Below, in pieces: positions 14,574 through 30,507 of a stretch of 64,000 nucleotides of DNA (its first letter is position 1; the number at the start of each line of letters is the position of its first letter). A program made the position numbers and the translations under genes. The stretch covers positions 1,232,153-1,296,152 of the forward strand of contig CP034928.1 in assembly GCA_004102645.1 (NCBI GenBank), given 5' to 3'. Source of the DNA: Candidatus Bipolaricaulis sibiricus. Lineage in GTDB: Bacteria; Bipolaricaulota; Bipolaricaulia; Bipolaricaulales; Bipolaricaulaceae. The notes below the pieces were generated by a model, which worked only from the letters and a program-made list of their open reading frames with translations, searched no databases and was not told where the DNA came from.

Positions 14574-14588
14574 GTCACGGAGACGCTT

Positions 14589-15434: not shown

Positions 15435-15461
15435 CCCGCACCTCCACGATCCAGGTCGAGC

Positions 15462-15490
15462 AAGGTAGCACGAACCGACATCGCAGTCAA
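15462..15490 (-). promoter_or_regulatory. Promoter of the SDR-SPT operon
   Basis: Minus strand TTGACT (15485-15490), 17 bp spacer, TACCTT (15462-15467), about 28 bp before the TTG start of the SDR gene. Confidence 0.65.
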
Positions 15491-15557
15491 CAGCTCACAC
15501 TCTGAGAACGCCTTTCCACACAATTCCCGCGCGGCCGCGTCACGCCGGAGACCAGAG

Positions 15558-15594
15558 AGGACGGGCCCCGGCGTGTTGCTCGCAGGCCCGTCCT
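15558..15594 (-). terminator. Hairpin ending the kdgK operon
   Basis: AGGACGGGCC and its complement GGCCCGTCCT pair across a 17-base loop, 27 bp after the kdgK stop. It separates the long catabolic operon from the SDR promoter. No U-run follows. Confidence 0.6.
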
Positions 15595-15620
15595 GTTGTC
15601 ACAGCGGGGCAGAGATGTCC

Positions 15621-16607
15621 TTACCGCGCGATGCGCAGACCCTCCCCCTTGAGGAGCCCCTCCACCTCATCCCGGGTCGCCCACACGAGGTCGCCAGGGT
15701 TCGTCTGCTTGAGGGCAGATGCCGCTATCCCGTATCGGACACCGGCCTCCGGCCCGTCGGTGAGGTACCCGAACAGAAACCCCCCAGCAAACGCGTCTCC
15801 CGCCCCCACCCGGTCCACGACCTCGATATCGTACGTGGGGCCGCGGATGATCCCGCCCTGGGCGTAGGCAATCGCCGTCCACGTGTTGTGCCACACCGAC
15901 GGCGTCTCCCGCACCGTGATCGCCACTACGGCGAGATTGAACTCCCGGGCGAGGCGCTCCGCCACCTTCTCATAGGCGGTCTCCTCGATCCCGAACACCC
16001 GTTTCGTGTCCTCTTCGGTCGTGATGAGGACATCAGCCATCCGGACGAGCCCGGTCATGACCCGGCGGGCCTCCTCTTGGGTCCACAGCCGGGCCCGGTA
16101 GTTGAGGTCGAGCGACACGAGGAGCCCAGCTTCCTTGGCTCTACTGACCGCTTCCTGCGTTGCCTTCGCGGCCAGCGAGGAAAGAGCGGGAGTGATCCCT
16201 GTGGTGTGGAAGCACCGGGCGTCACGGAAGATCTTGGCCCAGTCAACCTCACCCGGCCGGATGTTGGCCATGGCTGAACCTCGGCGGTCGTACAGCACAG
16301 AACTCGCCCGCGGGCTCGCCCCGAACTCCACAAAGTACAGGCCCACCCGGTCCTCGTCGGTCCACACGATGTGGGAGGCGTCCACTCCCTGCTCGCGGGC
16401 CCGGTTGGCGATCATCCGCCCCAGCGCGTTGCGGGAAAGCCGCGTCACGTAGGCGGCGTTCAGGCCGAGGCGTTGGGCGGTCACCGCCACGTTCAGCTCC
16501 GCCCCACCAACATGGACTTCGAGCGTGGTTGTCTGCTCCAGCCGCTGTAGCCCTGGCGGAGAGAGGCGAACCATCGCTTCCCCAAACGTCACCAGGTCAT
16601 ACTTCAT
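15621..16607 (-). CDS. kdgK: 2-keto-3-deoxygluconate kinase (PfkB family)
   Basis: 328 residues. PfkB/ribokinase signatures: MKYDLVTFGEAMVRLSPPG at the N-terminus, HVGGAELNVAVTAQRLG near residue 35 and the catalytic-base motif DRVGAGDAFAGGFLFGYL near 255. The N-terminal form and the GARFVEFG-like substrate loop (LYFVEFGASPRASSVLYDR) fit KDG kinases. It phosphorylates 2-keto-3-deoxygluconate to KDPG with ATP. The start is ATG 16607, preceded by GGAGGAGG and overlapping eda by 4 bp; the frame is open upstream but that part is antisense-like and inside eda. Last gene of the operon; with Eda it completes conversion of a 2-keto-3-deoxy sugar acid to pyruvate and glyceraldehyde 3-phosphate. Confidence 0.92.
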   Translation of the reverse strand: MKYDLVTFGEAMVRLSPPGLQRLEQTTTLEVHVGGAELNVAVTAQRLGLNAAYVTRLSRNALGRMIANRAREQGVDASHIVWTDEDRVGLYFVEFGASPRASSVLYDRRGSAMANIRPGEVDWAKIFRDARCFHTTGITPALSSLAAKATQEAVSRAKEAGLLVSLDLNYRARLWTQEEARRVMTGLVRMADVLITTEEDTKRVFGIEETAYEKVAERLAREFNLAVVAITVRETPSVWHNTWTAIAYAQGGIIRGPTYDIEVVDRVGAGDAFAGGFLFGYLTDGPEAGVRYGIAASALKQTNPGDLVWATRDEVEGLLKGEGLRIAR

Positions 16608-17248
16608 CGGGCCACCTCCTCCCGGGCTTTCCGCACCGCTTCCACCAGGGACCGGGCCCGTTCGGTGATGAGCTCGTACCGGCCCTCCGCCACCGCGCTC
16701 TTGTCCACGAGCCACGAGCCAGCGCAGACCGCGGCGGCACCGGCGCGGATGAACTCGCCAGCATTGTCCGCGGTGATCCCGCCCGTCGGCACGAGGGGGA
16801 TCTGGGGGAGAGGACCGTGCACCTCCTCAATGTACCTCGGGCTGAGCGCGGAAGAGGGGAACACCTTAACCATATCCGCCCCCGCTTCCCAGGCGGTGAG
16901 AATCTCGCTGGGGGTCATGGCACCGATGATGGCGGGGACTCCATAGCGGTGGGCCACCTCCAGGACGTCGAGCTTCACGGTGGGGGTGACGAGGAACCGC
17001 GCGCCCGCCAGGATCGCCTGACGGGCCGTAGGGGCATCGAGCACGGTTCCCACGCCGATGATCACCTCACTCAGCTCACTGGACACCTCCTCAATCGCCC
17101 GCAGGGCCCCCGGCGTGGTCATGGTGAGCTCGACGTACGGCAGCCCGCCGGTCGCGAGAGCCTCAGCGATGCGCAGGAGATCATCCGAGGACCGAATGCG
17201 GATGACCCCAAGCACACCTACTGTCTCAACCATCACGGTTTCTGTCAC
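16604..17248 (-). CDS. eda: KDPG/KDPGal-type aldolase
   Basis: 214 residues, the size of E. coli Eda (213). The catalytic glutamate is E40 in YVELTM and the Schiff-base lysine is K128 in DMVKVFPSS; their spacing of 88 equals that of E45 and K133 in the E. coli enzyme. VPTGGITADNAGEFIRAGA is the phosphate-binding end of the barrel. It cleaves 2-keto-3-deoxy-6-phosphogluconate to pyruvate and glyceraldehyde 3-phosphate. The start is taken as GTG 17248, since GGGGGG lies 7 bp before it; ATG 17233 is an alternative with no ribosome site. It begins 17 bp after the upstream threonine-synthase-like gene. Related DgaF aldolases work in D-glucosaminate breakdown, in keeping with the DgaE-like gene of this operon. 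Confidence 0.92.
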   Translation of the reverse strand: MTETVMVETVGVLGVIRIRSSDDLLRIAEALATGGLPYVELTMTTPGALRAIEEVSSELSEVIIGVGTVLDAPTARQAILAGARFLVTPTVKLDVLEVAHRYGVPAIIGAMTPSEILTAWEAGADMVKVFPSSALSPRYIEEVHGPLPQIPLVPTGGITADNAGEFIRAGAAAVCAGSWLVDKSAVAEGRYELITERARSLVEAVRKAREEVAR

Positions 17249-17265
17249 TTCAACCGCCCCCCTTG

Positions 17266-18546
17266 TCACAAGTCGTTGGCCACCCCGGTAGCGTCTTCCT
17301 GCCCGCGTTCGATCGCGCCTGCACAAGCTTGATAGAATGCCGATAGGCAAGGCTCGATGACGGGAACGGCGGACAAGAGCCGCTCCATCGGAGCTATGTC
17401 CTTGAGTCCGTGGCCGGTGAGCACACAAACCACGCGGTCTCCAAGTCTGAGAGCTCCCGTTTCCAGAGCTTGCTCAATGGCCGCCGCTCCCGCAGCACCC
17501 GCTGGCTCGACCAGTCCGATTCCCTCTCGAGCCAGTCGGTGCCAAGCGGCCAGGATGCTCTGATCATCCACCGCGAGCATGGCACCGTCACTCTCTCGAA
17601 CAGCACGCAGGGCCAAGGCGCCGCTTTCCTTGGGATCGTCCAGCGTCAACGCCGCAGCGATGGTCTTCGGAGGGGATTCGAGACGAGGCACGCTGCACAG
17701 TCCATGATCGAACGCGTTCACAATGGGACAACTTCCTGTCGGCTGGACTCCCACGAGCCTGGGCATTCGCGACGCCAGACCCAGAGCGTTCATCTCACGA
17801 AACCCCTTCCAGAGCCCACTGAGCAATGTTCCCGAACCAACTGGAACGAGAACAGCATCGATATCTCCTAACTCCAAGGTCAACTCATACGCCACGGTCT
17901 TGTATCCCTCCAAGATCAGTGGATTCCCATCCACAACCGTGTTCATGAGTAGCCATCCCAGCTCTGCAGAAGCCTGCTCAGCGAGATGAAGCACCTCGGC
18001 TTCGCGTTCTGCATTCACAGCCACCACCGTCGCACCATAGGCCTGGGTCATGAAAGTCTTCTCACGCGTTCCTCCCTGGTACATGAACACTACAGCGCGC
18101 ACACCGGCCAAGGCCGCATAGAGAGCGACCGAACCGGCAGCATTGCCACTGGACATCATCACGACCGTGTTGACCTGTTCAGGCAGCCCGCTGGTCATCA
18201 CAGCAACTCCCCGATCCTTGAACGAGCCGGAGGGATTAGCGCCTTCGTCCTTGAACATCAGGTCAATGCCCAGCTGGCGTCCCCACCGACGCGCGGGCAC
18301 TAGCAGTGTTCCGCCTTCACCACGGGAGAGCCTGCGAGGAAGAGGTGGAAGAAGCTGAGAATAACGCCAGATCCCCCGCTCCTTCTGAACACGTACCCTC
18401 TTCCCCTCTAAAGCGTATTCCGCCAGCAACAACCCCCGATCGCGAGGGCAGCGCCGGACCTCAAGCGGATAGAGAGAATGACATCGTTGACACCGCAGGC
18501 CCGCGAACCAGCTCTCCCTACCGACCACTGCAGCCACCTTCAGCAC
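17266..18546 (-). CDS. Threonine-synthase-like PLP enzyme, copy 1
   Basis: 426 residues, fold type II PLP enzyme. The PLP lysine is K110 in NPSGSFKDRG; MSSGNAAGS near 140 binds the cofactor phosphate side chain region and VPVGSGTLL near 235 is the glycine-rich phosphate loop. A short N-terminal zinc-ribbon-like part has CQRC and a single later Cys (CPRDR), so the fourth cysteine present in copy 2 is replaced by Asp. The start GTG 18546 overlaps the creatininase gene by 29 bp and is tentative; it places the PLP lysine at the same number as in copy 2. Threonine synthase converts O-phosphohomoserine to threonine, but the catabolic context and the presence of two copies suggest an elimination or replacement on another amino acid. 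Confidence 0.8.
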   Translation of the reverse strand: MLKVAAVVGRESWFAGLRCQRCHSLYPLEVRRCPRDRGLLLAEYALEGKRVRVQKERGIWRYSQLLPPLPRRLSRGEGGTLLVPARRWGRQLGIDLMFKDEGANPSGSFKDRGVAVMTSGLPEQVNTVVMMSSGNAAGSVALYAALAGVRAVVFMYQGGTREKTFMTQAYGATVVAVNAEREAEVLHLAEQASAELGWLLMNTVVDGNPLILEGYKTVAYELTLELGDIDAVLVPVGSGTLLSGLWKGFREMNALGLASRMPRLVGVQPTGSCPIVNAFDHGLCSVPRLESPPKTIAAALTLDDPKESGALALRAVRESDGAMLAVDDQSILAAWHRLAREGIGLVEPAGAAGAAAIEQALETGALRLGDRVVCVLTGHGLKDIAPMERLLSAVPVIEPCLSAFYQACAGAIERGQEDATGVANDL

Positions 18547-19369
18547 GGAGTCCCGGCAGAGTCCACCCGTGAAAAGCCACGATAAACCGCGCCACCTCTG
18601 CCGCGGCCACCTCAAGCCAGCGAGTCCCGCTCTCGGCCGTGGCAGCCGCCGCGTCACCAAGTACCCCGCTCGGCGAGAGCTCCTCGACGGAGAAACCCAC
18701 TGTAACCACGGAGTCCTCGTACCAATCGGTACTCCAGTAGATTTCGCCCTGGCCGTGGATGAACGGGGGACGCTCCCCTCTCACAAGATCAGAGCGGAGC
18801 GCCATCACCGCGGCCGTTTCGAACTCGCAAGCATGCCCGAGTCCACCAAGCTTGGACCGACGTTCTGCCCCGAGGACACGACGAAGAAAGGCCCAGTAGT
18901 TTGCGGCCGCACATAGCGCACCCGTCTGCCTGTGGATCCGGCTCACCGCAATCTCCAATGCAGCCTTGTTCCCAGCGTGGCCATTCAGGTAGAGCAGCTG
19001 TCGGAACCCGTGGGAAGCGATCGAGAGTCCCACCTGGGTCACCATGTCGATAAAGGTGACATCGTCGACAGCTAAGGTCCCGGGGAATCTCATGTGATGT
19101 TGGGAGCAACCAACGGTCAACGCCGGGGCAAGGAGGGCCGGCACGGTCTTCCGCGCCTGGGCCACGGCTTGGTCCGCAATTGCTGTCACGATGAGCGAGT
19201 CGGTGCAAAGAGGAAGATGAGGCCCGTGCTGCTCGGTAGATGCCGTGGGTACGACCACCACCGCCCCTCGCTCAGCCATCTCCCGGATTTCTGGCCAAGT
19301 GCACTCCTCCCACCTGTACGGATGACGCGGCCCCTCATCAAGCCCGGGGTTCCTTGCTACTTCGATCAC
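18518..19369 (-). CDS. Creatininase-family amidohydrolase
   Basis: 283 residues. Family metal ligands are visible: VPTASTEQHGPHLPLCTDSLI near residue 40 (Glu, His, Asp), LNGHAGN near 128 (the HGGN-type motif with Ala for one Gly), and GHACEFETAAVM near 178. Members hydrolyse cyclic amides or formamides (creatinine, mycofactocin precursor, FAPy-type compounds) using two metals. It overlaps the M20 gene by 4 bp in the RidA-led operon, so it probably opens an amide in the imported compound or an intermediate. The exact substrate cannot be predicted. Confidence 0.88.
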   Translation of the reverse strand: MIEVARNPGLDEGPRHPYRWEECTWPEIREMAERGAVVVVPTASTEQHGPHLPLCTDSLIVTAIADQAVAQARKTVPALLAPALTVGCSQHHMRFPGTLAVDDVTFIDMVTQVGLSIASHGFRQLLYLNGHAGNKAALEIAVSRIHRQTGALCAAANYWAFLRRVLGAERRSKLGGLGHACEFETAAVMALRSDLVRGERPPFIHGQGEIYWSTDWYEDSVVTVGFSVEELSPSGVLGDAAAATAESGTRWLEVAAAEVARFIVAFHGWTLPGLRAEGGCSGR

Positions 19370-20553
19370 GTCTGTCTCCCCTCACCCGCACATACGCGCA
19401 CAATCGCGCGAAGGTAAGCCCTAGCGGCGCTCCACACTTCATCGAGGTCGACGTGTTCATCTGCCCCGTGGGCCTGGGCGATGTCTCCGGGCCCCCACAC
19501 CACGGTGGGGACCCTGCGCTCCGCAAACAGAGACCCATCGGTCCCGTACGGAACACCCTGCAGCTCAGGTCGAAGCCCCTCTTCGCGGGCTGCTCCCTGC
19601 AACGCCCGAACGAAAGGATGATCTGAGCGGGTCTCCATGGGACGGCAATGCCGAGTCTCCTCCAACCTCCTCACGTTGGCTGTTACGCCACGGGCATCGC
19701 GGATCGCACGCGCGACAACCATGCGAATCTCGGCAAGAACGGCGTCGATATCCTCGCTGGGGAGCCATCTTCTATCGAGCCGCACCCAACATCGGTCGGG
19801 CACCACATTGGGGGCCACCCCCCCCTGAATCATCCCCACGCTGAGAGTCGGCGCCCCCAGCAAAGGGTGAGTTCTTTCCTCCGCCCACTTCACCCCTAGT
19901 TCCGCAAGCGCTTGAACGATCGCTGCGGCCCAGACAACGCTATTTGCCCCGATCTGGGGGCAGCTTGCATGAGCGGCACGGCCTTCGACAACGATCTCTA
20001 CCCACTCCACTCCTTTGTGGGCCGTGACCAGGCGGAGCCTTGTGGGCTCACCAACGATGCATGTCTGAGGCGTTACTTCGCTGAGCAGAGCTTTGGTCCC
20101 GAGACCGCCGATTTCCTCACCAGCAACAGCGGCTAACATCACCGGCCGCCTCAGAGGGAACCGGCCCCGCTGCAGGGCCACGAGGGCCATCGCCATGGCT
20201 GCCACTCCTGCCTTCATATCTGCTGCCCCACGCCCGAACAGAAGTCTCCCACGCACCGCCGGAGTGCGCCCCTCGGAAGGAGGGGGAACGGTATCAAGGT
20301 GCCCGTTGAGCAAGAGGAAGGGCGCGTCGGTTGGCTCTGGATAGCCCGCCAGCAGGTTCACATGGGGGCCTTCGGCCGCAGGCTGGACAACGGTCGCCAC
20401 TCCTTCTCCTGACAGGAACCTTCGAAGCCGATGTGCAACCTCCGCGGTTCCCACAGCGGAGTGGCTGGGAATGAGCACGAGCTCGTGTGCCAGACGGCGC
20501 ACCTCAGCTGGGGTGATGGATCCGATCAACCTTGCCCCAGTTGCCCCGCTCAT
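19366..20553 (-). CDS. M20-family metallohydrolase (ArgE/DapE/ACY1 type)
   Basis: 395 residues. Two-zinc site residues are seen in order: NGHLDTVPP near residue 83, the bridging Asp in GRGAADMKAG near 110, the catalytic Glu pair in VAGEEIGGLGTKAL near 146, and the C-terminal His in GADEHVDLDEV near 370. A lid/dimerisation domain lies at about 175-290. Such enzymes remove an N-acyl or N-carbamoyl group or a peptide-bound residue. It overlaps copy 2 of the threonine-synthase-like gene and the creatininase gene by 4 bp each. A good candidate for deacylating the molecule imported by the Dpp-type transporter. Confidence 0.9.
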   Translation of the reverse strand: MSGATGARLIGSITPAEVRRLAHELVLIPSHSAVGTAEVAHRLRRFLSGEGVATVVQPAAEGPHVNLLAGYPEPTDAPFLLLNGHLDTVPPPSEGRTPAVRGRLLFGRGAADMKAGVAAMAMALVALQRGRFPLRRPVMLAAVAGEEIGGLGTKALLSEVTPQTCIVGEPTRLRLVTAHKGVEWVEIVVEGRAAHASCPQIGANSVVWAAAIVQALAELGVKWAEERTHPLLGAPTLSVGMIQGGVAPNVVPDRCWVRLDRRWLPSEDIDAVLAEIRMVVARAIRDARGVTANVRRLEETRHCRPMETRSDHPFVRALQGAAREEGLRPELQGVPYGTDGSLFAERRVPTVVWGPGDIAQAHGADEHVDLDEVWSAARAYLRAIVRVCAGEGRQT

Positions 20554-21818
20554 ACGAAGTCGCCCCTCTCAGACTCACTCCCCGGGCCGCTGGAGAGATA
20601 AGCAGCTGAGGACGCTAGGTCTTCAACAGGAATCCTCTCTCCAAGTCGCCGCGACCGGCATAACTGTTCAGTGCGCTCCGTGTTCTTGAGTCCATGCCCC
20701 GTCACGTAACACACTACCCAGTCAGTGGGTTGGACCAAGTCCTGGTCAACTGCAGTGAGCAACCCCGCGGTTGCCACTGCTCCCGCAGGCTCTGCGAAAA
20801 CTCCCTCGAGCGAGGCGAGGAGGACTTGGGCTTCCTCCAGCCGCGCGTCGACCTTGCCCAAGTACATCCCGCCGGATGCGACAATGCTTTCCCGCGCCCA
20901 CACGCCGTCCAACGGAACGTAGTAGTTGGCCGAGTCAACAGCGTTCGCCCCGATGCGATCGATCTCCAGATACCGATCCCCGCCGTATTGGGCTCCAAAC
21001 ACCCGAGGCAAACGGTCTATCAGGCCCACCCGGCTGAGCTCCTCAAAGCCCTTCCAAGTCCCCCCGCACAGCCCCCCTCCCCCTACAGGTACGAACACTT
21101 TGTCGGGCACCTTCTTCAGTTGGAGAGCGATTTCGAACGCAATCGACTTCGCTCCCTCTACCACAAGGGGGTTCACCCGCCGCGCGGTAACCATCGGAAC
21201 GAGGTCGCGCTCGGCGCAGAACCGCCCCATGTCAGTGTAGACTGCGTAGTAGCGAGCCATGTCTCCGGTGACCGCGGGGTCGGGTAGGATAAACAACCGT
21301 GCCCCAAAGACCTGCATCTGGCTGAGTTTGGCAGAAGGAGTCCCGTCAGAAACCCAGATATTGGCCGTACAACCGGCGCGCGCACAGAAAGCGGCTAGCG
21401 AGACGCCAGCGTTGCCCGACGAGGCGATGCCGAACACCCGGTGCCTCCACTCCAGAGCCTTACAGAATGCCACGGCGACTTGTCGATCCTTGAAAGACCC
21501 GGTCGGATTGCACTGCTCAAGCTTGAGGTAGACATGACACAGACCGAGGCGGCGCGCCAGACGGGGAGCTGGGACAAGGGGCGTCCCCCCTTCCCCCAAC
21601 GTCACAGGATCTCCTTGTTCTAGCGGCGGGAGCAGCGGAGTGAATCTCTCCCAAAGGGACTGCCCCTGCCCCCAGGCCGACCTCCAGGAGCGCTGTTTCC
21701 TCAGTGCCTCGCAGTCATACTCCAGACTGAGTTCCCCCCCACACCGCGGGCACCGATATAGCTCCCGGAAGGCTTCCTCATGGCTGCAGTCCACACACCG
21801 CCAGACGGGGGAATCCAC
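20550..21818 (-). CDS. Threonine-synthase-like PLP enzyme, copy 2
   Basis: 422 residues, fold type II. The N-terminus carries a complete zinc-ribbon-like motif, CVDC and CPRC at about residues 8-28, then the PLP lysine K110 in NPTGSFKDRQ, ASSGNAGVSLAAF near 140 and the phosphate loop VPVGGGGLCGG near 250. It is clearly paralogous to copy 1, which lies three genes further down the operon, but only moderately similar. The 4 bp overlap with the M20 gene and 2 bp gap from the DgaE-like gene show tight coupling. Activity could be threonine synthase, threonine dehydratase or another beta/gamma-elimination; a RidA gene leading the operon fits an enamine-forming enzyme. Confidence 0.82.
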   Translation of the reverse strand: MDSPVWRCVDCSHEEAFRELYRCPRCGGELSLEYDCEALRKQRSWRSAWGQGQSLWERFTPLLPPLEQGDPVTLGEGGTPLVPAPRLARRLGLCHVYLKLEQCNPTGSFKDRQVAVAFCKALEWRHRVFGIASSGNAGVSLAAFCARAGCTANIWVSDGTPSAKLSQMQVFGARLFILPDPAVTGDMARYYAVYTDMGRFCAERDLVPMVTARRVNPLVVEGAKSIAFEIALQLKKVPDKVFVPVGGGGLCGGTWKGFEELSRVGLIDRLPRVFGAQYGGDRYLEIDRIGANAVDSANYYVPLDGVWARESIVASGGMYLGKVDARLEEAQVLLASLEGVFAEPAGAVATAGLLTAVDQDLVQPTDWVVCYVTGHGLKNTERTEQLCRSRRLGERIPVEDLASSAAYLSSGPGSESERGDFV

Positions 21819-21820
21819 GG

Positions 21821-23026
21821 TCAGCCCTCCCCAATCCAGTTCGTCAGCGAACGTATCTGGAGATCAGCCTGATTGGGGATTCCCTGGTGTTTGCGGCGGA
21901 TGGTCTCTTTGGTTGGGGCCGAGGACTCAACCAGGCCTCGGATGGCCGCGAGCACCGTGCTCACTTGGTCGGCCCGTACCACACACGGATCGAGGAACAG
22001 AACACCCTCATCGATCGCATGGTGATCACGTACCATGATGGGGGGTTCTCTGGCTGCGAGCGCAGCCGCGAGGTGGTACGCGGTCAGCCCGGCCAACTCT
22101 GGGTCCACTGCAACCTTGACCCGGGAGATCGGGTTGCCGGTGGGGTCGGGCTCTACCGAGACCTCAATGCCACTAAGTCCAGACAGGCCACGAACGAACT
22201 CGTTCAGTATCGCGCCCTGCTTGTGTCGTTCATCTTCGTGATCCAACGCCTCCCACCGCAGAAGGGCGGCCATCGCCCCCACGATCCCTTCCTTGCCTAC
22301 CTTCATCGCTCGGCCGATCCCATGGTATTGGTGGTACAGACAAGCCTCGACCAAGTCACGTTTCCCGGCGATGATCCCAGAAGTAGGGCCCGACAGAAAC
22401 TTGTGACCACTAAAGCACACAAGGTCTGCCCCCCGCTCGACAAAACTCCGCATGTTGCTCTCCGAAGCAGCGTCAACGACTACCGGTACACCGTGAGCGT
22501 GCGCCACGCGGCAGAACTCCTCGAGAGCAATGAGCCCGTATTGCACGGTATGGTGAGACACAACATACAGCGCAGCTGCCGTGTTCTCACAAAGTCTCCC
22601 CTCGAGCTGGTACACACCAGCCCGGGTCGCATCGCCGATCTCCACCACTTTGGCTCCACTCAGCCTCACCATCTGAGGAACCGACGCGCCGAACCACACC
22701 ACGTGCCCCCGCTGGATGACGACCTCGTCCTTGAGGCCGGTGGTGTCGGGCAGCTGTTCGACCCTCGCCATATCTCGGCCAGTCATGCAAGCAGCAACGC
22801 AGATCGCCATCCCAGCGGCGGCGCTCGACGTGATGCATCCGGCTTCTGCACCGATGACCCGCCGGATGACCTTGCTTGCCTGCCGTTGCAGGTCCACCAT
22901 GTCCACGAACTTCGGGAGGACCTCAACCATTGCTTGGATCACCTCGGGGGCCACCGAGCAAGAGCCAAGCGCAGTCATGGTGCCTGAGACATTGATCACC
23001 TCACGAATGACAAACCCCATGTTCAT
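21821..23026 (-). CDS. DgaE/SelA-type PLP enzyme, possible sugar-acid or amino-acid ammonia-lyase
   Basis: 401 residues. The N-terminal INVSGTMTALGS and the PLP lysine K209 in CFSGHKFLSGPTSG are characteristic of the SelA-related group that includes D-glucosaminate-6-phosphate ammonia-lyase (DgaE); DAASE near 188 supplies the PLP-pyridine aspartate. DgaE eliminates ammonia to give 2-keto-3-deoxygluconate 6-phosphate, the substrate of KDPG aldolase, and both an aldolase and a KDG kinase are in this operon. That context supports a lyase making a 2-keto-3-deoxy acid. No sugar PTS is present, so an unphosphorylated substrate followed by KdgK is a reasonable inference. It overlaps the amidohydrolase gene by 4 bp. 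Confidence 0.8.
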   Translation of the reverse strand: MNMGFVIREVINVSGTMTALGSCSVAPEVIQAMVEVLPKFVDMVDLQRQASKVIRRVIGAEAGCITSSAAAGMAICVAACMTGRDMARVEQLPDTTGLKDEVVIQRGHVVWFGASVPQMVRLSGAKVVEIGDATRAGVYQLEGRLCENTAAALYVVSHHTVQYGLIALEEFCRVAHAHGVPVVVDAASESNMRSFVERGADLVCFSGHKFLSGPTSGIIAGKRDLVEACLYHQYHGIGRAMKVGKEGIVGAMAALLRWEALDHEDERHKQGAILNEFVRGLSGLSGIEVSVEPDPTGNPISRVKVAVDPELAGLTAYHLAAALAAREPPIMVRDHHAIDEGVLFLDPCVVRADQVSTVLAAIRGLVESSAPTKETIRRKHQGIPNQADLQIRSLTNWIGEG

Positions 23027-24291
23027 GGCTGATCCACCGCCTTCTTTCGCCGATCAACGACGATCTCGCCCCTTCGCATCACCCAGACCACGTCTGCAAG
23101 TGCCTCTACACCCGCACAGGGATCTGCCACACATCCGATGATGTCGGCATCCGCCCCTGCTCGGATCTCCCCCTTGCGACCGCGCAACCCGAGGGCTCCC
23201 GCCGCGTGGTAGGTCGCTGCTAGCAGGACTTCCTCCGTACCCAACCCCGCTCGGCTCATAAGAACGAGCTCTAGATAGGTCTCGTCAAACGGGGTCAGAG
23301 TGACTCCAGCATCCGTCCCGATAACCGGCTGCACGCCCAACCGGATCAGTTTCGTAAAGCAGTCAAGCATCTTCTCCTCTTGCTCTAGGCGGAATCGGTC
23401 GTCTGCCCCCAAGTCGGTGCAGCCCCGGACCGCATCGAGCCGGTGGTATCCCGCACTGAGGCAAGGGGTCACGTAGGTACCAGCATCCGCCAGTATACGT
23501 GCGGCTGTGGAGTCATACTCCCGCACCAATCGTCCCTCGCGATCACGGGTGAAGAACACCGCATGCTCGACACAATCCACTCCACATCTGACAGCATCGA
23601 CCACGCCTTCGGCACACAGGCAGTGGGCCACGGCACGCAGCCCAAGGCGATGGGCTTCGGTGACCACGCTCCGCAACTCAGCAAGCCTGTAGGCTGGGGC
23701 TTCGGGGCGCGTCCCAGGCGTCATCTGGCCACCAGTGGCCATGATTTTGACCGCGTCTACCCCCGCCTTCGCTCGTTGTCGCACCGCAGCGCGGACTCCC
23801 TCCACTCCGTCCGCTTCCCCGCCCATCCAATGCAGGTGCCCGCCCGTGGGGGTTATCGGTGGGCCGCTCACCAGCACCTCAGGTAGGGTATGCTGTGCTT
23901 GCACCGCGGGATCCCTCAAGAGCACAAGACCATAACCCCGAGAACCGCAGTCCCGAACCGTAGTCGCCCCAGAGAGCAGCATCGTGCGTGCATTGCCCAC
24001 CGCCCGGAGCAGAAGGGCCAGATCATCCCGAGACAGGTAATCGGGCACCGGGTCATCACCCGCATTCATCGTCAGATGGACGTGGGTGTTCAGAAGCCCC
24101 GGCATCAAATACAGATCGTCTAGTTGTACCCTTCGGTACAGCCTTGAGAATGCGAGTTGCCGTTCGACCTCAGCCAAAGGGCCAACGGCCACGACCTTCG
24201 TCCCCTCGATCGCCACTGCCCCCGGAGCAAACGGCCGTTGGCCAGGGATTCCGGTCCACACACTGCGAGCCGTCACCAGAAGCTCTGCCAT
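23023..24291 (-). CDS. Amidohydrolase (imidazolonepropionase/prolidase-like)
   Basis: 422 residues, TIM-barrel amidohydrolase superfamily. Metal ligands: HVHL near residue 67, the lysine region VDAVKIMATGG near 175, two histidines in AVAHCLCAEG and CVEHAVF (about 215-240) and the catalytic Asp in GTDAGVTLTPF near 320. Members with the MATGG segment include prolidase-like and imidazolonepropionase-like hydrolases of amides and lactams. The start is taken as ATG 24291, giving the family's usual MAELLVTARSV opening; two in-frame ATGs upstream lie inside or nearly inside dppC. It sits directly behind the Dpp permease genes, so it may perform the first cytoplasmic step on the imported compound. 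Confidence 0.88.
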   Translation of the reverse strand: MAELLVTARSVWTGIPGQRPFAPGAVAIEGTKVVAVGPLAEVERQLAFSRLYRRVQLDDLYLMPGLLNTHVHLTMNAGDDPVPDYLSRDDLALLLRAVGNARTMLLSGATTVRDCGSRGYGLVLLRDPAVQAQHTLPEVLVSGPPITPTGGHLHWMGGEADGVEGVRAAVRQRAKAGVDAVKIMATGGQMTPGTRPEAPAYRLAELRSVVTEAHRLGLRAVAHCLCAEGVVDAVRCGVDCVEHAVFFTRDREGRLVREYDSTAARILADAGTYVTPCLSAGYHRLDAVRGCTDLGADDRFRLEQEEKMLDCFTKLIRLGVQPVIGTDAGVTLTPFDETYLELVLMSRAGLGTEEVLLAATYHAAGALGLRGRKGEIRAGADADIIGCVADPCAGVEALADVVWVMRRGEIVVDRRKKAVDQP

Positions 24292-24304
24292 GGCGTGGTC
24301 AGGG

Positions 24305-25126
24305 TCAAGTGTGTACATGCCTCCGCTTCGGGTCCAAGGCCTCGCGGAGACCGTCTCCAACAAGGTTTAGAAAGAGCACGCATAACATGATGGCCCCCCC
24401 CGCGAAGAAAACCATCCACGGTGCTGTCTGCATGATTGGCCGGGCGTCACCGATGATGTTTCCCCAGCTTGGCGTCGGAGGCTGAATCCCCACACCGACA
24501 AAGCTCAGCCCTGCCTCTCCGAGCACCGCATATGCGAAGATAAAGGTCTGTTGGACAACCAAAGCCGGAATCGCTCCCGGCAGCACGTGTCGAAGCAAGA
24601 TCCGCGGAGTCGAGAAACCCAAAGCCCGTGCAGCCTCTACGTACGCTTCCTGTCGGACCCCCAACACCACGCTTCGTACCACTCGCGCGGTGCGCGGTGT
24701 GTACGCCAAGGAGAGCGCAACGACCACGTTGAACGCACTGGAACCAAGTGAGGCCATTATCGCCAGGGCAAGCAACAAGGATGGGAACGACATCAGAACG
24801 TCCATGACTCGCATCACCACAGCATCCAGGCGGGCGAGGCCGCCGCAACCGAGGCCCACCAATCCGCCCAGTCCTGCGGTCATAACCATCGTCGCTGCAC
24901 CCACGGCGAGACTGATCCGCCCCCCGTGCACCACACGAGACAATAGGTCGCGGCCTAGATCGTCGGTACCCAGAGGGTGACCCCGCCCGGGCGGGAGAAG
25001 AATAGCGGTGTAGTCCATATCCGTCGGATCTGCCGTAATCATGGTCGGCCCAACCACGACGACCAGCAGCAAGACCCCCAGGCCGACGATTCCCACAAAA
25101 AGAGAGGGGCTCTTCAAACCCGCCAT
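24305..25126 (-). CDS. Dipeptide/oligopeptide-type ABC permease (DppC family)
   Basis: 273 residues, five to six membrane segments. The DppC hallmark GRGHPLGTDDLGRDLLSRVVHGGRISL in outline is at about residues 45-70, and the permease coupling motif EAYVEAARALGFSTPRILLRHVLPG near 170. The start is ATG 25126, because AGGAGG lies 9 bp before it; longer in-frame starts would run into dppB. It pairs with DppB. No Dpp ATPase gene is present in the operon, so an ATPase pair from elsewhere must energise the importer. Confidence 0.93.
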   Translation of the reverse strand: MAGLKSPSLFVGIVGLGVLLLVVVVGPTMITADPTDMDYTAILLPPGRGHPLGTDDLGRDLLSRVVHGGRISLAVGAATMVMTAGLGGLVGLGCGGLARLDAVVMRVMDVLMSFPSLLLALAIMASLGSSAFNVVVALSLAYTPRTARVVRSVVLGVRQEAYVEAARALGFSTPRILLRHVLPGAIPALVVQQTFIFAYAVLGEAGLSFVGVGIQPPTPSWGNIIGDARPIMQTAPWMVFFAGGAIMLCVLFLNLVGDGLREALDPKRRHVHT

Positions 25127-25139
25127 TCGCGCCCGCCTC

Positions 25140-26084
25140 CTAGTCATACTTGATCCTCGGGTCCAGATACGCGTAGGCAACGTCAACGACGAGGTTCGCG
25201 AGCAGAACGATGCTCGACACCACAAGGAGGACACCCTGCACAACCGGATAGTCGCGACGCTTCACAGCCGCGATAACCAAACTCCCGATGCCCGGCAACC
25301 GAAAGACGACCTCAGTGATGAACGCCCCACCAAGAAGCAGCGCGAACGAAAGCCCGATCACGGTCACAATCGGTAGCATCGCATTGCGCAATGCATGCTT
25401 CCACACGACACGAGACTCGTGGAGCCCTTTGGCCCGTGCCGTCCGGACACAGTCACCCGTCAACACCTCGAGCATCGCCGAGCGGGTCATGCGCGCGATC
25501 AAAGCCGACTGGATGAACCCCAGAGAGAAGGCAGGCATGGCTATGTGCAGCAGCGCTCTCCGGAAGTCCGCAGTGAAAGCAACGTATCCCCCAGTCGGCA
25601 GCCAACGCAGCGTCACCGCGAACACGTACATCAATCCTAGTCCCATCAGGAACTCTGGAATCGATAGACCAATCAGCGATACGCCCATCACAGTCGTGTC
25701 TAGCACCGTATTCGGGCGGAGCGCAGCAATGATCCCCAACGGGAGGCCGATCAGAGTGGCCACCACCATGGCACACAGCGTGAGAGCGAACGTCACCGGG
25801 ATACGCTCCACAATCGCCACCGCTACCGGCCGACCCAAGAAGTACGAATCCCCGAGGTCGCCCTGAAGCAGACCCAGATACCAGTCCTGCAGCCGATGTA
25901 CAAGCGGCTTATCCAGCCCTAGCCTCTGGCGGACGGTTTCCACCCCAGTCAGGGTGGCTTCCTGCCCCAAGATCACGGCAGCGGGATCTCCCGGCGTAAG
26001 CTGGATGATAAGAAACGCCATCAGCCCGACGGCAAGCCATGTCGGAATCAACCCGAGCAGCCGACGGCAGATGTATCCGATCAT
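25140..26084 (-). CDS. Dipeptide/oligopeptide-type ABC permease (DppB family)
   Basis: 314 residues with six predicted spans, standard for DppB. The N-terminal MIGYICRRLLGLIPTWLAVG span, the DPAAVILGQEAT periplasmic loop and the coupling segment CVRTARAKGLHESRVVWKHALRNAM (about residues 215-240) are typical. The C-terminal VDVAYAYLDPRIKYD ending is the classic family tail. It forms the membrane channel with DppC. It is separated from dppA by a strong hairpin (26099-26125). Confidence 0.94.
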   Translation of the reverse strand: MIGYICRRLLGLIPTWLAVGLMAFLIIQLTPGDPAAVILGQEATLTGVETVRQRLGLDKPLVHRLQDWYLGLLQGDLGDSYFLGRPVAVAIVERIPVTFALTLCAMVVATLIGLPLGIIAALRPNTVLDTTVMGVSLIGLSIPEFLMGLGLMYVFAVTLRWLPTGGYVAFTADFRRALLHIAMPAFSLGFIQSALIARMTRSAMLEVLTGDCVRTARAKGLHESRVVWKHALRNAMLPIVTVIGLSFALLLGGAFITEVVFRLPGIGSLVIAAVKRRDYPVVQGVLLVVSSIVLLANLVVDVAYAYLDPRIKYD

Positions 26085-26098
26085 GGTATCGGGGGAAG

Positions 26099-26125
26099 CG
26101 AGGGGGGACCCCAGGTCCCCCCTCG
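26099..26125 (-). terminator. Hairpin between dppA and dppB
   Basis: CGAGGGGGGACC and its exact complement with a 3-base loop, starting 12 bp after the dppA stop. As at livK-livH it would favour receptor over permease expression. No U-run, so it is more likely an attenuator or mRNA stabiliser than a full stop. Confidence 0.65.
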
Positions 26126-26136
26126 TCGTTATCCCG

Positions 26137-27693
26137 TCACTCCTTCCAACAGTCCCAGAACCGCGGAATGACGTACCACGGCGTGTACCCCCTCAGGCGC
26201 GCATTCGTCCCTTCAAGGGTGAAGAAATCACCGATCCTCAATACGGCAACATCCTCCCACATGTAACGCTGCAACTCGTGGAAGATACGCTGTCTTTCCT
26301 CTACTGGCCGATCGCGCGACAGTTCCGACAGCAGCCGGTCCACCTCAGGGTTGCAGTACATGTAGGCGTAGGGGGCTCCACATTTCAGGCTCGTCGCCAG
26401 CTGGATAGGGTCAAGCCGCGGAGACCACCCGGTTTGATTGATGTGCCACCCCTTCTGGGTCAATGCACGCTGGATCTGGGAAGGCCAGTCAGAGAACTCC
26501 ACGATGACGTTGATGCCAGCCTGCTGAAGTTGGGAGGCCACCGCCAATGTACACTTGTACATCCAGTCGTAATCCCGGTTCGACAAGAAGATAATGGGCT
26601 CAAAGTTGTACCCGGCTTCGGCGAGAAGCCTGCGTACCTCCGCCAGATCCTTCTTGTTGTATCCTTCTGCCCCGGCATCCGTGTGCCATACTGCCTGCTC
26701 CGGGAAGAAAAAGCCCGGTTGCGTTCGGTAGAACGCCGGGTTCCCGAACGTTACAGCGCGGAGGACGTCCTCCATGCCGAGCGCCGCGATCAACGCTCTC
26801 CGGAATAGGACGTTGTCCATCGGTGGCTCGGACTGATTGAGCTCCAGGACAAGCGCCCATCGTGGCTTGAGCACGTTCGGCACTACATCAGGGTTACGGA
26901 GTAGCTGTTCGTAAGCCGTGATGGGGAGGGACTCCGCGTAGTCGAACTCTCCGGTGAGCAGACCCGCCAACCTAGCAGCCTGCTCCAACACAGGGATGAA
27001 CTGGATCTCCTCAAAGTAGGCAGTGCGGCGTCCTCCCAACCCGCTCGGTCCAGAGAACCTTTCGTCGGCGGTGTACTCGGCAAACCTGACGAGGCGCACG
27101 TGCACATCCGGTCTCCACTCAGCGAAGCGGTACGGTCCAGTGCCGATTAGATCTGAACCACGTACCTCAGCTTGCCTCCCTCGGATGATCTCTGCTGGGT
27201 AGATGGCCAAGAACGGATCAGGAATGGCCAGGGTAACTAGCAGAAGAGTAGGCTCTTTGACCCTGATCTCGACCGTCAAGGGATTGAGAGCTGTGACACT
27301 CTCCACAATCCCGGCGAACCTTCCGCCCCCTGGCGAATAGGCAAAATACCGTTCAAGAGATGCTACCACATCATCGGCAGTTAGAGTCTTTCCGTTGTGG
27401 AATCTCACCCCCGCGCGCAGATAGAAAATGTAGACAAGCCCGTCGGAACTTATCTCCCAGCTCTCAGCAAGCTGTGGGATGATGTCGTACTCCTCCCCGT
27501 AGACCACTAAGGTCTCAAAAACGTAGGGGGCTACCTGACGGACAACTACGTTGGTGCTGAGGTGTGGATCTAGGGTGGGTGGATTCGTCTGCATCGCTGC
27601 CTTGAGGATTCCTCCAGGGCGCCCCGGTTGAGCAAGTACCGGTAGCGAAAGCATCACCAGCGCTAACACAACAACCATCATCACGCGCTTCAT
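26137..27693 (-). CDS. Dpp/Opp-type solute-binding protein (SBP family 5)
   Basis: 518 residues. The signal peptide MKRVMMVVVLALVMLSLPVLAQ has no lipobox. It is followed by GGILKAAMQTNPPTLDPHLSTN, the typical first strand of family 5 receptors, and the LAESWEISSDGLVYIFYLRAGVRFHNGKTLTADDV block in outline near residues 80-115. GAGGAGG lies before the ATG at 27693; the frame is open upstream but without that site. Family 5 receptors bind peptides, nickel, opines, sugars or nucleoside antibiotics; the hydrolase and lyase neighbours favour a nitrogenous organic ligand here. Confidence 0.93.
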   Translation of the reverse strand: MKRVMMVVVLALVMLSLPVLAQPGRPGGILKAAMQTNPPTLDPHLSTNVVVRQVAPYVFETLVVYGEEYDIIPQLAESWEISSDGLVYIFYLRAGVRFHNGKTLTADDVVASLERYFAYSPGGGRFAGIVESVTALNPLTVEIRVKEPTLLLVTLAIPDPFLAIYPAEIIRGRQAEVRGSDLIGTGPYRFAEWRPDVHVRLVRFAEYTADERFSGPSGLGGRRTAYFEEIQFIPVLEQAARLAGLLTGEFDYAESLPITAYEQLLRNPDVVPNVLKPRWALVLELNQSEPPMDNVLFRRALIAALGMEDVLRAVTFGNPAFYRTQPGFFFPEQAVWHTDAGAEGYNKKDLAEVRRLLAEAGYNFEPIIFLSNRDYDWMYKCTLAVASQLQQAGINVIVEFSDWPSQIQRALTQKGWHINQTGWSPRLDPIQLATSLKCGAPYAYMYCNPEVDRLLSELSRDRPVEERQRIFHELQRYMWEDVAVLRIGDFFTLEGTNARLRGYTPWYVIPRFWDCWKE

Positions 27694-27737
27694 GTCGAAC
27701 CTCCTCGGGTCTTCCCCTCTCACACGAAACCTCACGT

Positions 27738-28295
27738 TCACCGAAACCCCAAGTTCACGCGCTGCTCCGCGTCGTTCCTCGCCGCTTTCACCTCCTCGCC
27801 TCGGTTCGGGGCCGCCCCCGCGCAACCCGTTGTCGGAAACAACCGAACCACCACCTCCACCTCCACCGCGATGTTGCCTGGCAGTACGCTTGTTCCCAGA
27901 GCCGCCCGTGCATGACGCCCCCTCTCCCCGAACAACCTCACCAGAAGCTCCGAAGCTCCGTTCAGGACCTTGGGTTGGTCGTGAAAACCAGGTGCGCTGC
28001 TGATGAACCCGCGAACATGGACCACCTCAGCTACTCGGTCCAGGGACCCCGCGACCATCTTCACCGCGGCGAGGCTATTCAGGACGCACAGCTGAGCTGC
28101 CTCGTAAGCCTCAGAGAGGGATACCTCCGCACCTACCCGTCCCACACAGATCGCTCTACCGTTCTGGATTGGACCTTGACCCGACACGTAGACCAGGTCT
28201 CCCACCTGCTTCGCCGGGACGTACTCCGCCACTGGCGTGGGAACCGGCGGAAGCTGCAGACCTAGCTCGACCAAACGGGCCTCTATCGCATCCAT
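27738..28295 (-). CDS. RidA-family enamine/imine deaminase
   Basis: 185 residues. Residues about 1-155 match the RidA/YjgF fold: the YVSGQGPIQNG strand near 37, the central AYEAAQLCVLNSLAAV helix, and the conserved arginine with ARAALGTSVLPGNIAVEVEVVVRL. RidA proteins hydrolyse reactive enamines and imines released by PLP enzymes to keto acids plus ammonia. Its place as first gene of an operon with four PLP or aldolase enzymes fits such a role. A tail of about 30 residues after the fold (TTGCAGAAPNRGEEVKAARN) is unusual. The promoter at 28332-28360 precedes it; no ribosome site is clear. Confidence 0.88.
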   Translation of the reverse strand: MDAIEARLVELGLQLPPVPTPVAEYVPAKQVGDLVYVSGQGPIQNGRAICVGRVGAEVSLSEAYEAAQLCVLNSLAAVKMVAGSLDRVAEVVHVRGFISSAPGFHDQPKVLNGASELLVRLFGERGRHARAALGTSVLPGNIAVEVEVVVRLFPTTGCAGAAPNRGEEVKAARNDAEQRVNLGFR

Positions 28296-28331
28296 GTCAT
28301 TTGGCTAAAGCAAAAACCCTTTTTCTTATGC

Positions 28332-28360
28332 AATATACAGCCGCTGCACTCCCCTGTCAA
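28332..28360 (-). promoter_or_regulatory. Strong promoter of the ridA-dpp-kdgK operon
   Basis: Minus strand consensus TTGACA (28355-28360), 17 bp spacer, TATATT (28332-28337), giving a leader of about 30 bases. The leader (28296-28325) is AT-rich with A and T runs, unlike its surroundings, and is a possible site for the nearby IclR regulator. Confidence 0.8.
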
Positions 28361-28388
28361 GGGCCACGAGTACAGCCCCTCGCCCGGC

Positions 28389-29486
28389 CTATGTTTCCAG
28401 AGCGTCTAGCCCGGCCTTCAGCGCCTCGAGAAGGCCGCCGACCGCTGTCGGAGTCGCTGTGGGCCCCATGTGGCCCACCCGGAATACCTTCCCCCGCAGC
28501 TTTCCCAGGCTCCCGGCAATAAGGATTCCGTGGCAGTCACGCAGATAGCCCAACAGCTCTTCGACTCGCCCCTCGGGTCCCACCACGCTCGTCACTCCGT
28601 GCGCAGCTACCTTGTCCTCTACGAACGGAGCGAGCCCCAAGTCGCGCAGACCACGCCGCAAGGAGGCTGCGACTTCCTGATGGCGGTGCTGGCGGCCCTC
28701 CAACCCTTCGCGGAGGATCCGCTCCACCCCCAAGCGGAGGGCTCGCACGTTGTTCACCGCCTGCGTGATGGGGTGCGGATGCCAATCGCTCCACCGCGCC
28801 GTGTACTCCCGCCATACCTTGAGATTGAGGTACCAGCCGGCACCCGCCGCCCGGTCGATCCAGCGCCAGGCCGCATCGTCCACCGCGACCACTGCCAACC
28901 CAGGCGGGGATTCAAGCCCCTTCTGAGATGCAGACACGCATATCCCGATGTTCCAGTCATCCATGGGCAGGCGCTCCACGCCAAGCGACGAGACGGCATC
29001 CACGACAAGAAGTACGTCGTACCTCAGGCAGACCTCGGCAAGCTCTCTGACAGGGTTCAAGACTCCAGTGGAGGTCTCGCAGTGCACCACCGCTACTGCG
29101 TCGAACGGCCTCCGACGAACCCGGTCCTCCACCCGGTTCACATCCACACACTGCCCAAGCGGGAACGGCAGGACTTCCACGTCCGGTGTATGGGATCGAG
29201 CGATCTCGGCAAGCCTCTCCCCAAAGAAGCCGTTCTGGGGGATGAGCACGCGTCCCGAATGGCCAACGGCCGAACCCAACGCCGCATCCAGTCCAGCGCT
29301 GCCGGAGCCGGGGATCAGGAACACGTCGCCCGTGGTGCAGTACACACGACGCACCAAGTCAACGGTCTTCTGGTAGTAGGCTGTCCATTCCGCCCCGTAG
29401 TGAGCCACGAGGGGTTCGCCCATCGCCGCCAGCACCTCCGGGGCGACCTCGGTCGGTCCTGGGATCATCAGTCTGTACTGCCTCAT
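28389..29486 (-). CDS. Class V aminotransferase (alanine/serine-glyoxylate type)
   Basis: 365 residues. The N-terminal MIPGPTEVAPEVLAAMGEP is the usual opening of alanine-glyoxylate aminotransferases; GSGSAGLDAALGS near 62 and the Asp of VDAVSSLGVERLP near 165 bind PLP, and the lysine is K189 in ASQKGLESPPG. It transfers an amino group between a small amino acid and glyoxylate or pyruvate. It lies between iclR and the ridA promoter, about 75 bp after iclR, so it may share the iclR transcript. Serine-pyruvate or phosphonoacetaldehyde-type activities are alternatives. Confidence 0.9.
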   Translation of the reverse strand: MRQYRLMIPGPTEVAPEVLAAMGEPLVAHYGAEWTAYYQKTVDLVRRVYCTTGDVFLIPGSGSAGLDAALGSAVGHSGRVLIPQNGFFGERLAEIARSHTPDVEVLPFPLGQCVDVNRVEDRVRRRPFDAVAVVHCETSTGVLNPVRELAEVCLRYDVLLVVDAVSSLGVERLPMDDWNIGICVSASQKGLESPPGLAVVAVDDAAWRWIDRAAGAGWYLNLKVWREYTARWSDWHPHPITQAVNNVRALRLGVERILREGLEGRQHRHQEVAASLRRGLRDLGLAPFVEDKVAAHGVTSVVGPEGRVEELLGYLRDCHGILIAGSLGKLRGKVFRVGHMGPTATPTAVGGLLEALKAGLDALET

Positions 29487-29561
29487 CCTCGGTCCTGCCC
29501 GTCCCAGGCGGGTTCAGGGGAGCAGGTAAGACCCCAGTGGACCAGTGTCCAGGGCATGGAG

Positions 29562-30335
29562 CTAACCGGCCTCGTAACCCATGGCAGCCGAGATGTCCTG
29601 GGCACCCTTCACCACCGCACAGGCGAACTGCTCCAGTGGATCACGAGCCAGCCGGCTCTTCATGAGAGACACGGAGATCGCGGCCACGACCCGGCCCCGA
29701 TAGTTCCGCACCGGGGCCGCGACGCACACGTTGCCCTCGTGGAACTCCTCCCAGTCCACGGCAAAGGCGTGCTGCCTCACCCGCTCAAGCTCCTGACGGA
29801 GGGTCGTCGGCTCGGTCACCGTGTTCGGGGTGAGGGCAGGGAGCCCCCCCCGCCCCAGGACCCGCTCCGCGACGTCCGGATTGTGAGCCAGGAGAACCTT
29901 CCCCAGCGCCGTACAGTGAGACGGGACGCGGAGGCCGATCGCGGAGGAGATGACCATGCTCGGAGCGGCCTCCTCCCGATCGAGGTATAGGACGTCGTCC
30001 TCGTACAGGATCGCGAGGTGGGTATTCGCTTCGAGGGCGCGGGCCAGCCGGCGCAACACGGGCTTCGCTTGCTCGCGGATGTCGAGCGAGCCGAGGATGT
30101 GGTTCGCCTGGGCAAGGATCTTTAGGCCAAGGCGATACCGCTTCGTCTCCGGGTCGCGATCGAGGTACCCGAACCGCTGCAGCGTGTGGACTACGGGGTA
30201 GATGCTCCCCGGCCGGGTGCCCATCGCCCGCGCGACCTCGGTCAGCGTAAGTCCGCGCGGCACCTCCCCGTTGAACAGGTCTAACACCCCAAGGGCCTTG
30301 GCCAACGATGTGTTGAGGTAGCGCTCCCGCTGCAT
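29562..30335 (-). CDS. IclR-family transcriptional regulator
   Basis: 257 residues. An N-terminal winged helix-turn-helix (about residues 8-75: GLTLTEVARAMGTRPGSIYPVVHTLQRFGYL) is followed by the IclR effector domain (about 85-250) with GLRVPSHCTALGKVLLA and VCVAAPVRNYRGRVVAAISVS. IclR proteins control catabolic operons in response to small carboxylates. Its position upstream of the aminotransferase and the RidA-Dpp-KDG operon makes it the probable regulator of that pathway. The promoter is 9 bp before the start codon and there is no ribosome site, so the mRNA is probably leaderless. Confidence 0.93.
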   Translation of the reverse strand: MQRERYLNTSLAKALGVLDLFNGEVPRGLTLTEVARAMGTRPGSIYPVVHTLQRFGYLDRDPETKRYRLGLKILAQANHILGSLDIREQAKPVLRRLARALEANTHLAILYEDDVLYLDREEAAPSMVISSAIGLRVPSHCTALGKVLLAHNPDVAERVLGRGGLPALTPNTVTEPTTLRQELERVRQHAFAVDWEEFHEGNVCVAAPVRNYRGRVVAAISVSLMKSRLARDPLEQFACAVVKGAQDISAAMGYEAG

Positions 30336-30344
30336 TGCTGCTGA

Positions 30345-30373
30345 ATTTTACCAACACAAATGGGTTCTGACAA
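30345..30373 (-). promoter_or_regulatory. iclR promoter
   Basis: Minus strand TTGTCA (30368-30373), 17 bp spacer, TAAAAT (30345-30350), ending 9 bp before the ATG at 30335. A palindrome TGTCGACA lies just upstream at 30383-30390 and could be part of an operator. Confidence 0.75.
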
Positions 30374-30461
30374 TAGGCGATATGTCGACACGTGCCGGGT
30401 GGTCCCTGTCCAGCGCGGGCCAGTTCCTTCCCCAGTGAGGAGGCGGGACAACGGGGATCCC

Positions 30462-30490: not shown

Positions 30491-30507
30491 TGTTGGGGAG
30501 GCGGTCT

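Follow-up and report, generated by a model that had tools for sequence, protein, structure and literature searches.

Which compound is degraded by the products of an operon that combines a Dpp-type importer, a Rid protein, three hydrolases, several PLP enzymes, a 2-keto-3-deoxygluconate (KDG) kinase and a KDPG aldolase? The question is raised by a locus of Candidatus Bipolaricaulis sibiricus lying in the 64,000-nucleotide stretch of contig CP034928.1 analysed here (hereafter the window). A first-pass annotation had grouped the twelve minus-strand genes from ridA (28295) to kdgK (15621) into a unit that follows one consensus promoter and is a candidate for an undescribed catabolic pathway. The observation was confirmed and the interpretation was partly supported. 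On balance, we lean towards a facultative 14-gene island for the uptake and breakdown of a 2-amino-2-deoxy-aldonic acid, either D-glucosaminate or one of its epimers, which most likely arrives N-acylated or peptide-linked.

Gene content of the operon and its insertion site

Translation and family scans identified 14 intact minus-strand genes in the order iclR, aminotransferase, ridA, SBP (solute-binding protein), dppB, dppC, amidohydrolase, dgaE-like, ThrC-like 2, M20, creatininase, ThrC-like 1, eda and kdgK. In each enzyme checked, among them hydrolases, PLP enzymes and the kinase, the catalytic motifs were found to be intact. The program-called starts of the SBP gene, eda and kdgK are too long. 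The features are as follows (all on the minus strand):

29562..30335, minus: IclR-family regulator (PF01614, 1e-45; PF09339)
28389..29486, minus: class-V PLP aminotransferase, PPAT/PhnW/BhcA-like (PF00266, 2.6e-20; NF046070, 201.6 bits, below cut-off)
28332..28360, minus: sigma-70-like promoter TTGACA-N17-TATATT (11/12 consensus), just upstream of ridA
27738..28295, minus: Rid-family imine/enamine hydrolase (PF14588, 5.6e-26)
26137..27825 (likely start 27681), minus: ABC solute-binding protein, family 5 (PF00496, 6.9e-68)
25140..26084, minus: DppB, Dpp/Opp-type permease (PF00528, PF19300)
24305..25243 (likely start 25147 or 25126), minus: DppC, Dpp/Opp-type permease (PF00528)
23023..24363, minus: metal-dependent amidohydrolase, cog1228-like carboxypeptidase/N-acyl amino acid hydrolase type (PF01979, 1.7e-31)
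21821..23026, minus: DgaE-like PLP ammonia-lyase, Cys346 clade (TIGR01437, 349 bits; PDB 7lc0, 9.4e-77)
20550..21818, minus: threonine-synthase-like PLP enzyme 2 (PF00291, 6e-56)
19366..20553, minus: M20 (ArgE/DapE-like) deacylase (PF01546, 4.1e-35)
18518..19369, minus: creatininase-family hydrolase (PF02633, 8.8e-68)
17266..18660, minus: threonine-synthase-like PLP enzyme 1 (PF00291, 2e-68)
16604..17428 (likely start about 17233), minus: KDPG/KHG aldolase Eda (TIGR01182, 189.2 bits)
15621..16715 (likely ATG start 16607), minus: PfkB-family kinase, probably a KDG kinase (PF00294; PDB 2afb, 1.1e-74)

The twelve genes of the first-pass annotation are all present, intact and tightly coupled: a 2-bp gap separates the dgaE-like gene from ThrC-like 2, and 4-bp overlaps join amidohydrolase to dgaE, ThrC-like 2 to M20, M20 to creatininase and, with the ATG at 16607, eda to kdgK. 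However, the unit is larger than proposed, with the aminotransferase and IclR genes located immediately upstream on the same strand and within the same insertion. The consensus promoter is also present, but two promoter-like sites were observed in the scan compared to 2.4 expected by chance from shuffles. As this count does not exceed the expectation, the site at 28360-28332 is only suggestive of an operon promoter.

The window was used as a blastn query against six genomes of the same genus (G004, G005, G007, G008, G011 and G014). The comparison places the operon within 15.1 kb of inserted DNA, at 15394-30496, which separates kdsR from recA and is missing from this site in all six genomes. 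The relatives' flanks align to window positions 15386-15393 and again from 30497, the start of recA, and the flank ends at their empty site are about 90-100 bp apart. In G005, G007, G008 and G014 the alignment spans acs, SPT and kdsR before the insertion site; for G004 and G011 the aligned sequence on the left is acs (at 13267), which adjoins recA. Neither terminal repeats of at least 9 bp nor a tRNA were found at the insertion ends, so these point to no particular integrase or transposon mechanism.

The region 13356-15434 carries serine palmitoyltransferase-like and 3-ketodihydrosphingosine-reductase-like genes, a sphingolipid-type pair scoring under the NCBIfam equivalog cut-offs. This pair is located between the acyl-CoA ligase gene and recA in the window genome, G005, G007, G008 and G014. 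It is missing in G004 and G011, which makes the recA-side site variable in content twice over.

The insertion is a mosaic in terms of GC3, the values being 0.62-0.73 for ridA through ThrC-like 1 and 0.83-0.86 for iclR, eda and kdgK, compared to 0.82-0.87 for neighbouring genes. Relatives of eda and kdgK with about 55-80% identity, many of them with 65-80%, occur in other genomes of the phylum, in many of which the two genes are adjacent or close and terminate different sugar clusters. Some of these clusters carry the same aminotransferase or IclR type: the window IclR is 70% identical to that of two eda clusters of the phylum (L141, L144), and an aminotransferase homologue (51-60% identity) adjoins eda in three loci (L039, L151 and L152). 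The GC3 contrast and the eda and kdgK relatives elsewhere in the phylum make the eda-kdgK module and the IclR gene look phylum-native, and the importer-to-ThrC block acquired.

In L142, L147 and L152 (from other genomes of the phylum, G025, G079 and G085) the eda-kdgK sugar clusters include genes for aldehyde:ferredoxin oxidoreductase-like and small cysteine-rich ferredoxin-like proteins, and L142 also contains an N-acylglucosamine 2-epimerase-like gene; a ferredoxin-linked oxidation of aldoses feeding KDG is possible in these clusters. G001 has three copies of eda over a span of about 17 kb (contig 29, 13504-30361), and they belong to separate sugar clusters.

The DgaE-like lyase and the predicted fate of its product

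The DgaE-like protein scored 349.2 bits against TIGR01437, under the cut-off of 385.3, and 328.2 bits against a further family profile, likewise under its cut-off. In a maximum-likelihood tree, the twelve DgaE-like proteins linked to ABC importers (the window protein and eleven plasmid orthologues) formed one clade (support 100/99). Alignment revealed that all of them keep His162-His163, Lys213, Arg301 and Arg332. Position 346 is Cys in 12/12 of these proteins and Arg in Salmonella DGL, in PDB 8t7j and in a Klebsiella homologue that sits in a PTS-like locus. Salmonella DGL acts on D-glucosaminate-6-phosphate, with His163 as the C3 proton donor, and in a manual docking model the substrate phosphate lies close to its three proposed ligands, Arg301, Arg332 and Arg346 (PMC9529869). 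Cys346, the ABC importer and the downstream putative KDG kinase together argue for an unphosphorylated substrate of the window enzyme. They do not prove it: Arg301 and Arg332 remain and Cys346 could be a mere lineage mark, so the argument from the phosphate site falls short of proof.

Eda exceeds the TIGR01182 cut-off (156.05 bits), and the genome, rated 99.8% complete, has no other match to PF01081. KDG kinases are the nearest relatives of the kinase, which matches that of T. maritima (PDB 2afb) and scored 309.9 bits against NF041332 (equivalog cut-off 440) and 68.6 bits against NF052444 (cut-off 400). The same genome yielded zero matches to PF00920 (IlvD/Edd), and therefore has no Edd. This absence also implies that the standard dihydroxyacid dehydratase of branched-chain amino acid synthesis is missing. 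The only strong MR_MLE (enolase-type) match in the genome is preceded by a GNAT gene, the arrangement of OSBS/racemase pairs; its product looks like an OSBS/racemase-type enzyme and not evidently like a sugar-acid dehydratase. The DgaE-like enzyme is the best candidate source of KDG in this genome, although uronate or other KDG-producing routes are conceivable. A non-phosphorylating route is favoured by the Cys346 clade, the single KDPG aldolase in the operon and the lack of an Edd/IlvD homologue.

The predicted substrate, steps and reaction order are as follows. The family-5 binding protein and DppBC would import the substrate using ATPases encoded elsewhere, and the amidohydrolase and/or the M20 enzyme would release its amino group. 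The DgaE-like lyase would eliminate ammonia from the unphosphorylated amino-sugar acid to yield KDG, with the Rid protein hydrolysing any enamine/imine set free. KdgK would convert KDG to KDPG, and Eda would cleave KDPG to pyruvate and glyceraldehyde-3-phosphate. The IclR protein would be the regulator of the island.

Importer, accompanying enzymes and conservation of the core

The operon encodes a Dpp/Opp-type importer set, comprising the family-5 binding protein (PF00496) and two PF00528 permeases. As noted in the first-pass annotation, it has these ABC importer genes instead of a PTS. No gene for an oligo_HPY ABC ATPase was found within the operon, and three tandem pairs of Dpp/Opp-type ATPases are encoded elsewhere in the genome. 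Plain peptides are often the cargo of the DppB/C and binding protein families.

In an alignment with cluster homologues and a sequence that we take to be that of TdcF, the Rid protein was found to contain the conserved Arg and Glu and an HAR...VEVE motif. The Arg is required for imine hydrolysis (PMC4433059).

The best PDB match of the amidohydrolase is 3be7, a Zn-dependent arginine carboxypeptidase (2.5e-38), and its score against PF07969 (26.8 bits) is below the cut-off of 29.7. The M20 protein scored 214 bits against TIGR01910 (cut-off 217.6). The two ThrC-like enzymes scored 129.1 and 157.4 bits against TIGR00260 threonine synthase, both below 167.1; two other ThrC-like genes are present elsewhere in the genome. 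For the creatininase-family protein, PF02633 membership is clear, with 102.1 bits against TIGR04448, below the equivalog cut-off of 235. A beta-hydroxyaspartate cycle, considered because of BhcA/BhcB/BhcR-like matches, was rejected: the scores were far below cut-offs and the operon contains no BhcC/BhcD-type gene.

Homologues were surveyed in plasmids and in 100 genomes of the phylum; a broader scan of genome contigs with the DgaE-like protein gave a single match of 49 residues. This protein is 48-53% identical to plasmid proteins of Rhizobium, Sinorhizobium, Martelella, Qingshengfaniella, Aminobacter, Salipiger, Phyllobacterium and others. In the annotated plasmid loci, genes for a family-5 binding protein and a pair of permeases are accompanied by ATPase genes, a RidA-family gene and a regulator gene of the IclR or GntR type, and often by one for an amidohydrolase/deacetylase. 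In two unannotated loci (L036, L038), tblastn detected SBP, DppB, DppC and RidA homologues in the same order (32-49% identity). A Paraburkholderia locus gave Rid and IclR matches, with no Dpp genes within the stretch taken. Within the phylum, one genome (G041) carries dppB-dppC-Rid-DgaE'-eda-aminotransferase and another (G003) has dppC-...-deacetylase-DgaE'-Rid, in which the deacetylase scores above the PRK09237 cut-off. The core SBP5-DppB-DppC-Rid-DgaE-like, usually with a cog3964-type deacetylase, is therefore found on plasmids of Alphaproteobacteria and, in more diverged form, in G041 and G003. Literature searches gave nothing specific on the rhizobial cluster. Divergent DgaE/SelA-like domains that lack His-His are encoded on rhizobial plasmids in two clusters (L045, L046) whose PEP mutase and cytidylyltransferase genes indicate phosphonate biosynthesis.

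The gene order SBP5-DppBC-[deacetylase]-Rid-DgaE thus recurs, and the synteny check set by the first-pass annotation comes out positive for DgaE-Rid-Dpp. It does not for the creatininase, M20 and ThrC-like genes, which were found at none of the DgaE loci examined outside the window. Plasmid searches with the ThrC-like, creatininase and aminotransferase proteins returned only 30-40% homologues, mostly in unrelated contexts. In haloarchaea a ThrC-like gene directly adjoins an M20 gene (L065, L068), and in Natronorubrum M20 adjoins creatininase. Such pairs without DgaE suggest either processing of the other half of a conjugated substrate or a second route sharing the importer. While the proposed logic of import, deacylation, DgaE/Rid, KdgK and Eda is supported, the action of creatininase, M20 and the two ThrC-like enzymes on the same substrate is unsupported so far; our guess would be that the ThrC-like, creatininase and aminotransferase proteins process an amino-acid or acyl part. 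In another cluster of the phylum (L149 of G041, 1075-2515), two tandem creatininase-family genes lie upstream of eda, which suggests that such hydrolases recur near KDG-type routes.

Relation to known routes and alternative explanations

The closest parallel in outline is the ong pathway of Pseudoalteromonas prydzensis, which leads from GlcNAc1A through GlcN1A and KDG to KDPG with no prior phosphorylation, requires the Rid protein OngD for growth on GlcNAc1A, and has a deaminase, OngC, that also acts on D-serine and D-threonine (PMC9537276). The ong deacetylase is a D-aminoacylase-like amidohydrolase (PMC12017989). The proposed route has in common with ong an acylated amino-sugar acid that is not phosphorylated, its deacetylation, a deamination that yields KDG, and the participation of KdgK, Rid and KDPG aldolase; the KDG kinase and Rid genes, as ong-type features, are both in the window cluster. 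The differences include (i) a fold-type III deaminase in ong versus the DgaE-like lyase (SelA-related fold), (ii) the D-aminoacylase-type OngB versus the cog1228, M20 and creatininase hydrolases, (iii) the SSS symporter OngIT and a beta-hexosaminidase versus the Dpp-type ABC importer, and (iv) the location of Eda inside the window operon. Since the two differ in the fold type of the deaminase, in the family of the deacetylase and in the transporter, the window system parallels ong in outline but is not a member of it.

With DGL/dga (PDB 7lc0, 7lce) the window shares a homologous PLP lyase with the same His-His and Lys, and KDPG as the predicted end product. It differs in the lack of a PTS, the change of Arg346 to Cys, the added KDG kinase and a PF01081 aldolase where the Klebsiella dga-like locus has one of the KDGP-aldolase family; adjacent PTS genes and a DgaF-type aldolase were not found in the window operon. 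The alphaproteobacterial SBP5-DppBC-(cog3964 deacetylase)-(DppDF)-Rid-IclR-DgaE loci (Rhizobium, Martelella, Salipiger and others), judged by annotation, are alike in transporter, Rid, regulator family and DgaE clade, but lack eda, kdgK, aminotransferase, M20, creatininase and ThrC-like genes. A glucosaminate route with a DgaE homologue was proposed for chitinotrophic haloarchaea, whose clusters have IclR and Rid/RutC-family neighbours (PMC12343721); the haloarchaeal plasmid homologues examined here lack His-His and Arg301/332 and fall outside the window clade. The designation of the pathway as undescribed must thus be narrowed, the same intermediates and a Rid protein being already part of the experimentally established ong pathway and a DgaE-homologue route having been proposed.

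Several points speak against the amino-aldonate reading: the window has cog1228, M20 and creatininase enzymes in place of the homologues' cog3964 deacetylase, Arg301/332 are retained and the role of Arg346 comes from manual docking, the KdgK and DgaE-like scores are under equivalog cut-offs, and peptide cargo is common for this importer type. A composite scavenging operon, in which one peptide/N-acyl importer serves an amino-sugar-acid route (Rid, DgaE, Eda, KdgK) and an N-acyl amino acid/peptide route (cog1228, M20, creatininase, two ThrC-like), would account for the absence of the ThrC-like, M20 and creatininase genes from the other DgaE loci examined and for the haloarchaeal and Natronorubrum pairs independent of DgaE. 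We consider it rather unlikely, as these three kinds of gene have dgaE on one side and eda on the other, with junctions of 2-4 bp, favouring one coordinated process.

Catabolism of a hydroxylated amino acid or peptide, with the DgaE-like enzyme deaminating another beta-hydroxy (D-)amino acid and Eda acting as a 4-hydroxy-2-oxoglutarate aldolase, is less probable still. Members of the Eda family can be bifunctional KHG/KDPG aldolases according to NCBIfam names, and OngC, a functional analogue, accepts D-serine and D-threonine; yet a kinase is superfluous in KHG routes, and here it overlaps eda by 4 bp in a pair that recurs in sugar clusters of the phylum. The classical D-glucosaminate-6-phosphate route with a kinase in place of the PTS seems the most improbable: it is consistent with two of the three phosphate-site Arg residues, the presence of a kinase and the haloarchaeal proposal (PMC12343721), but no member of the clade has kept Arg346, the best matches of the kinase are KDG kinases, and the DGL-type partners (PTS, KDGP-aldolase family) are absent.

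Under the preferred amino-sugar-acid reading, the window system would represent a new variant of amino-sugar-acid catabolism, real and coherent, with its steps predicted from sequence. More tentatively, and short of probable, the Cys346 clade may constitute unrecognised non-phosphorylating amino-aldonate ammonia-lyases which, with the Dpp-type importer and Rid, serve a catabolism of acylated/peptidyl amino-sugar acids common to rhizobia and this phylum, the window having gained hydrolases and lyases for an undescribed conjugate. If the proposed pathway is right, a small genome would have gained a whole route at one site, and the clean empty sites of its relatives allow comparison. The pathway would then make sense of genes found together again and again on the plasmids of plant-associated rhizobia, where they carry only the generic annotations transporter, hydrolase, RidA and SelA-like. 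It would also provide a physiological partner reaction for the Rid protein and show that the GlcNAc1A/glucosaminate step in oxidative chitin turnover can be carried out in a second way, by an unrelated enzyme.
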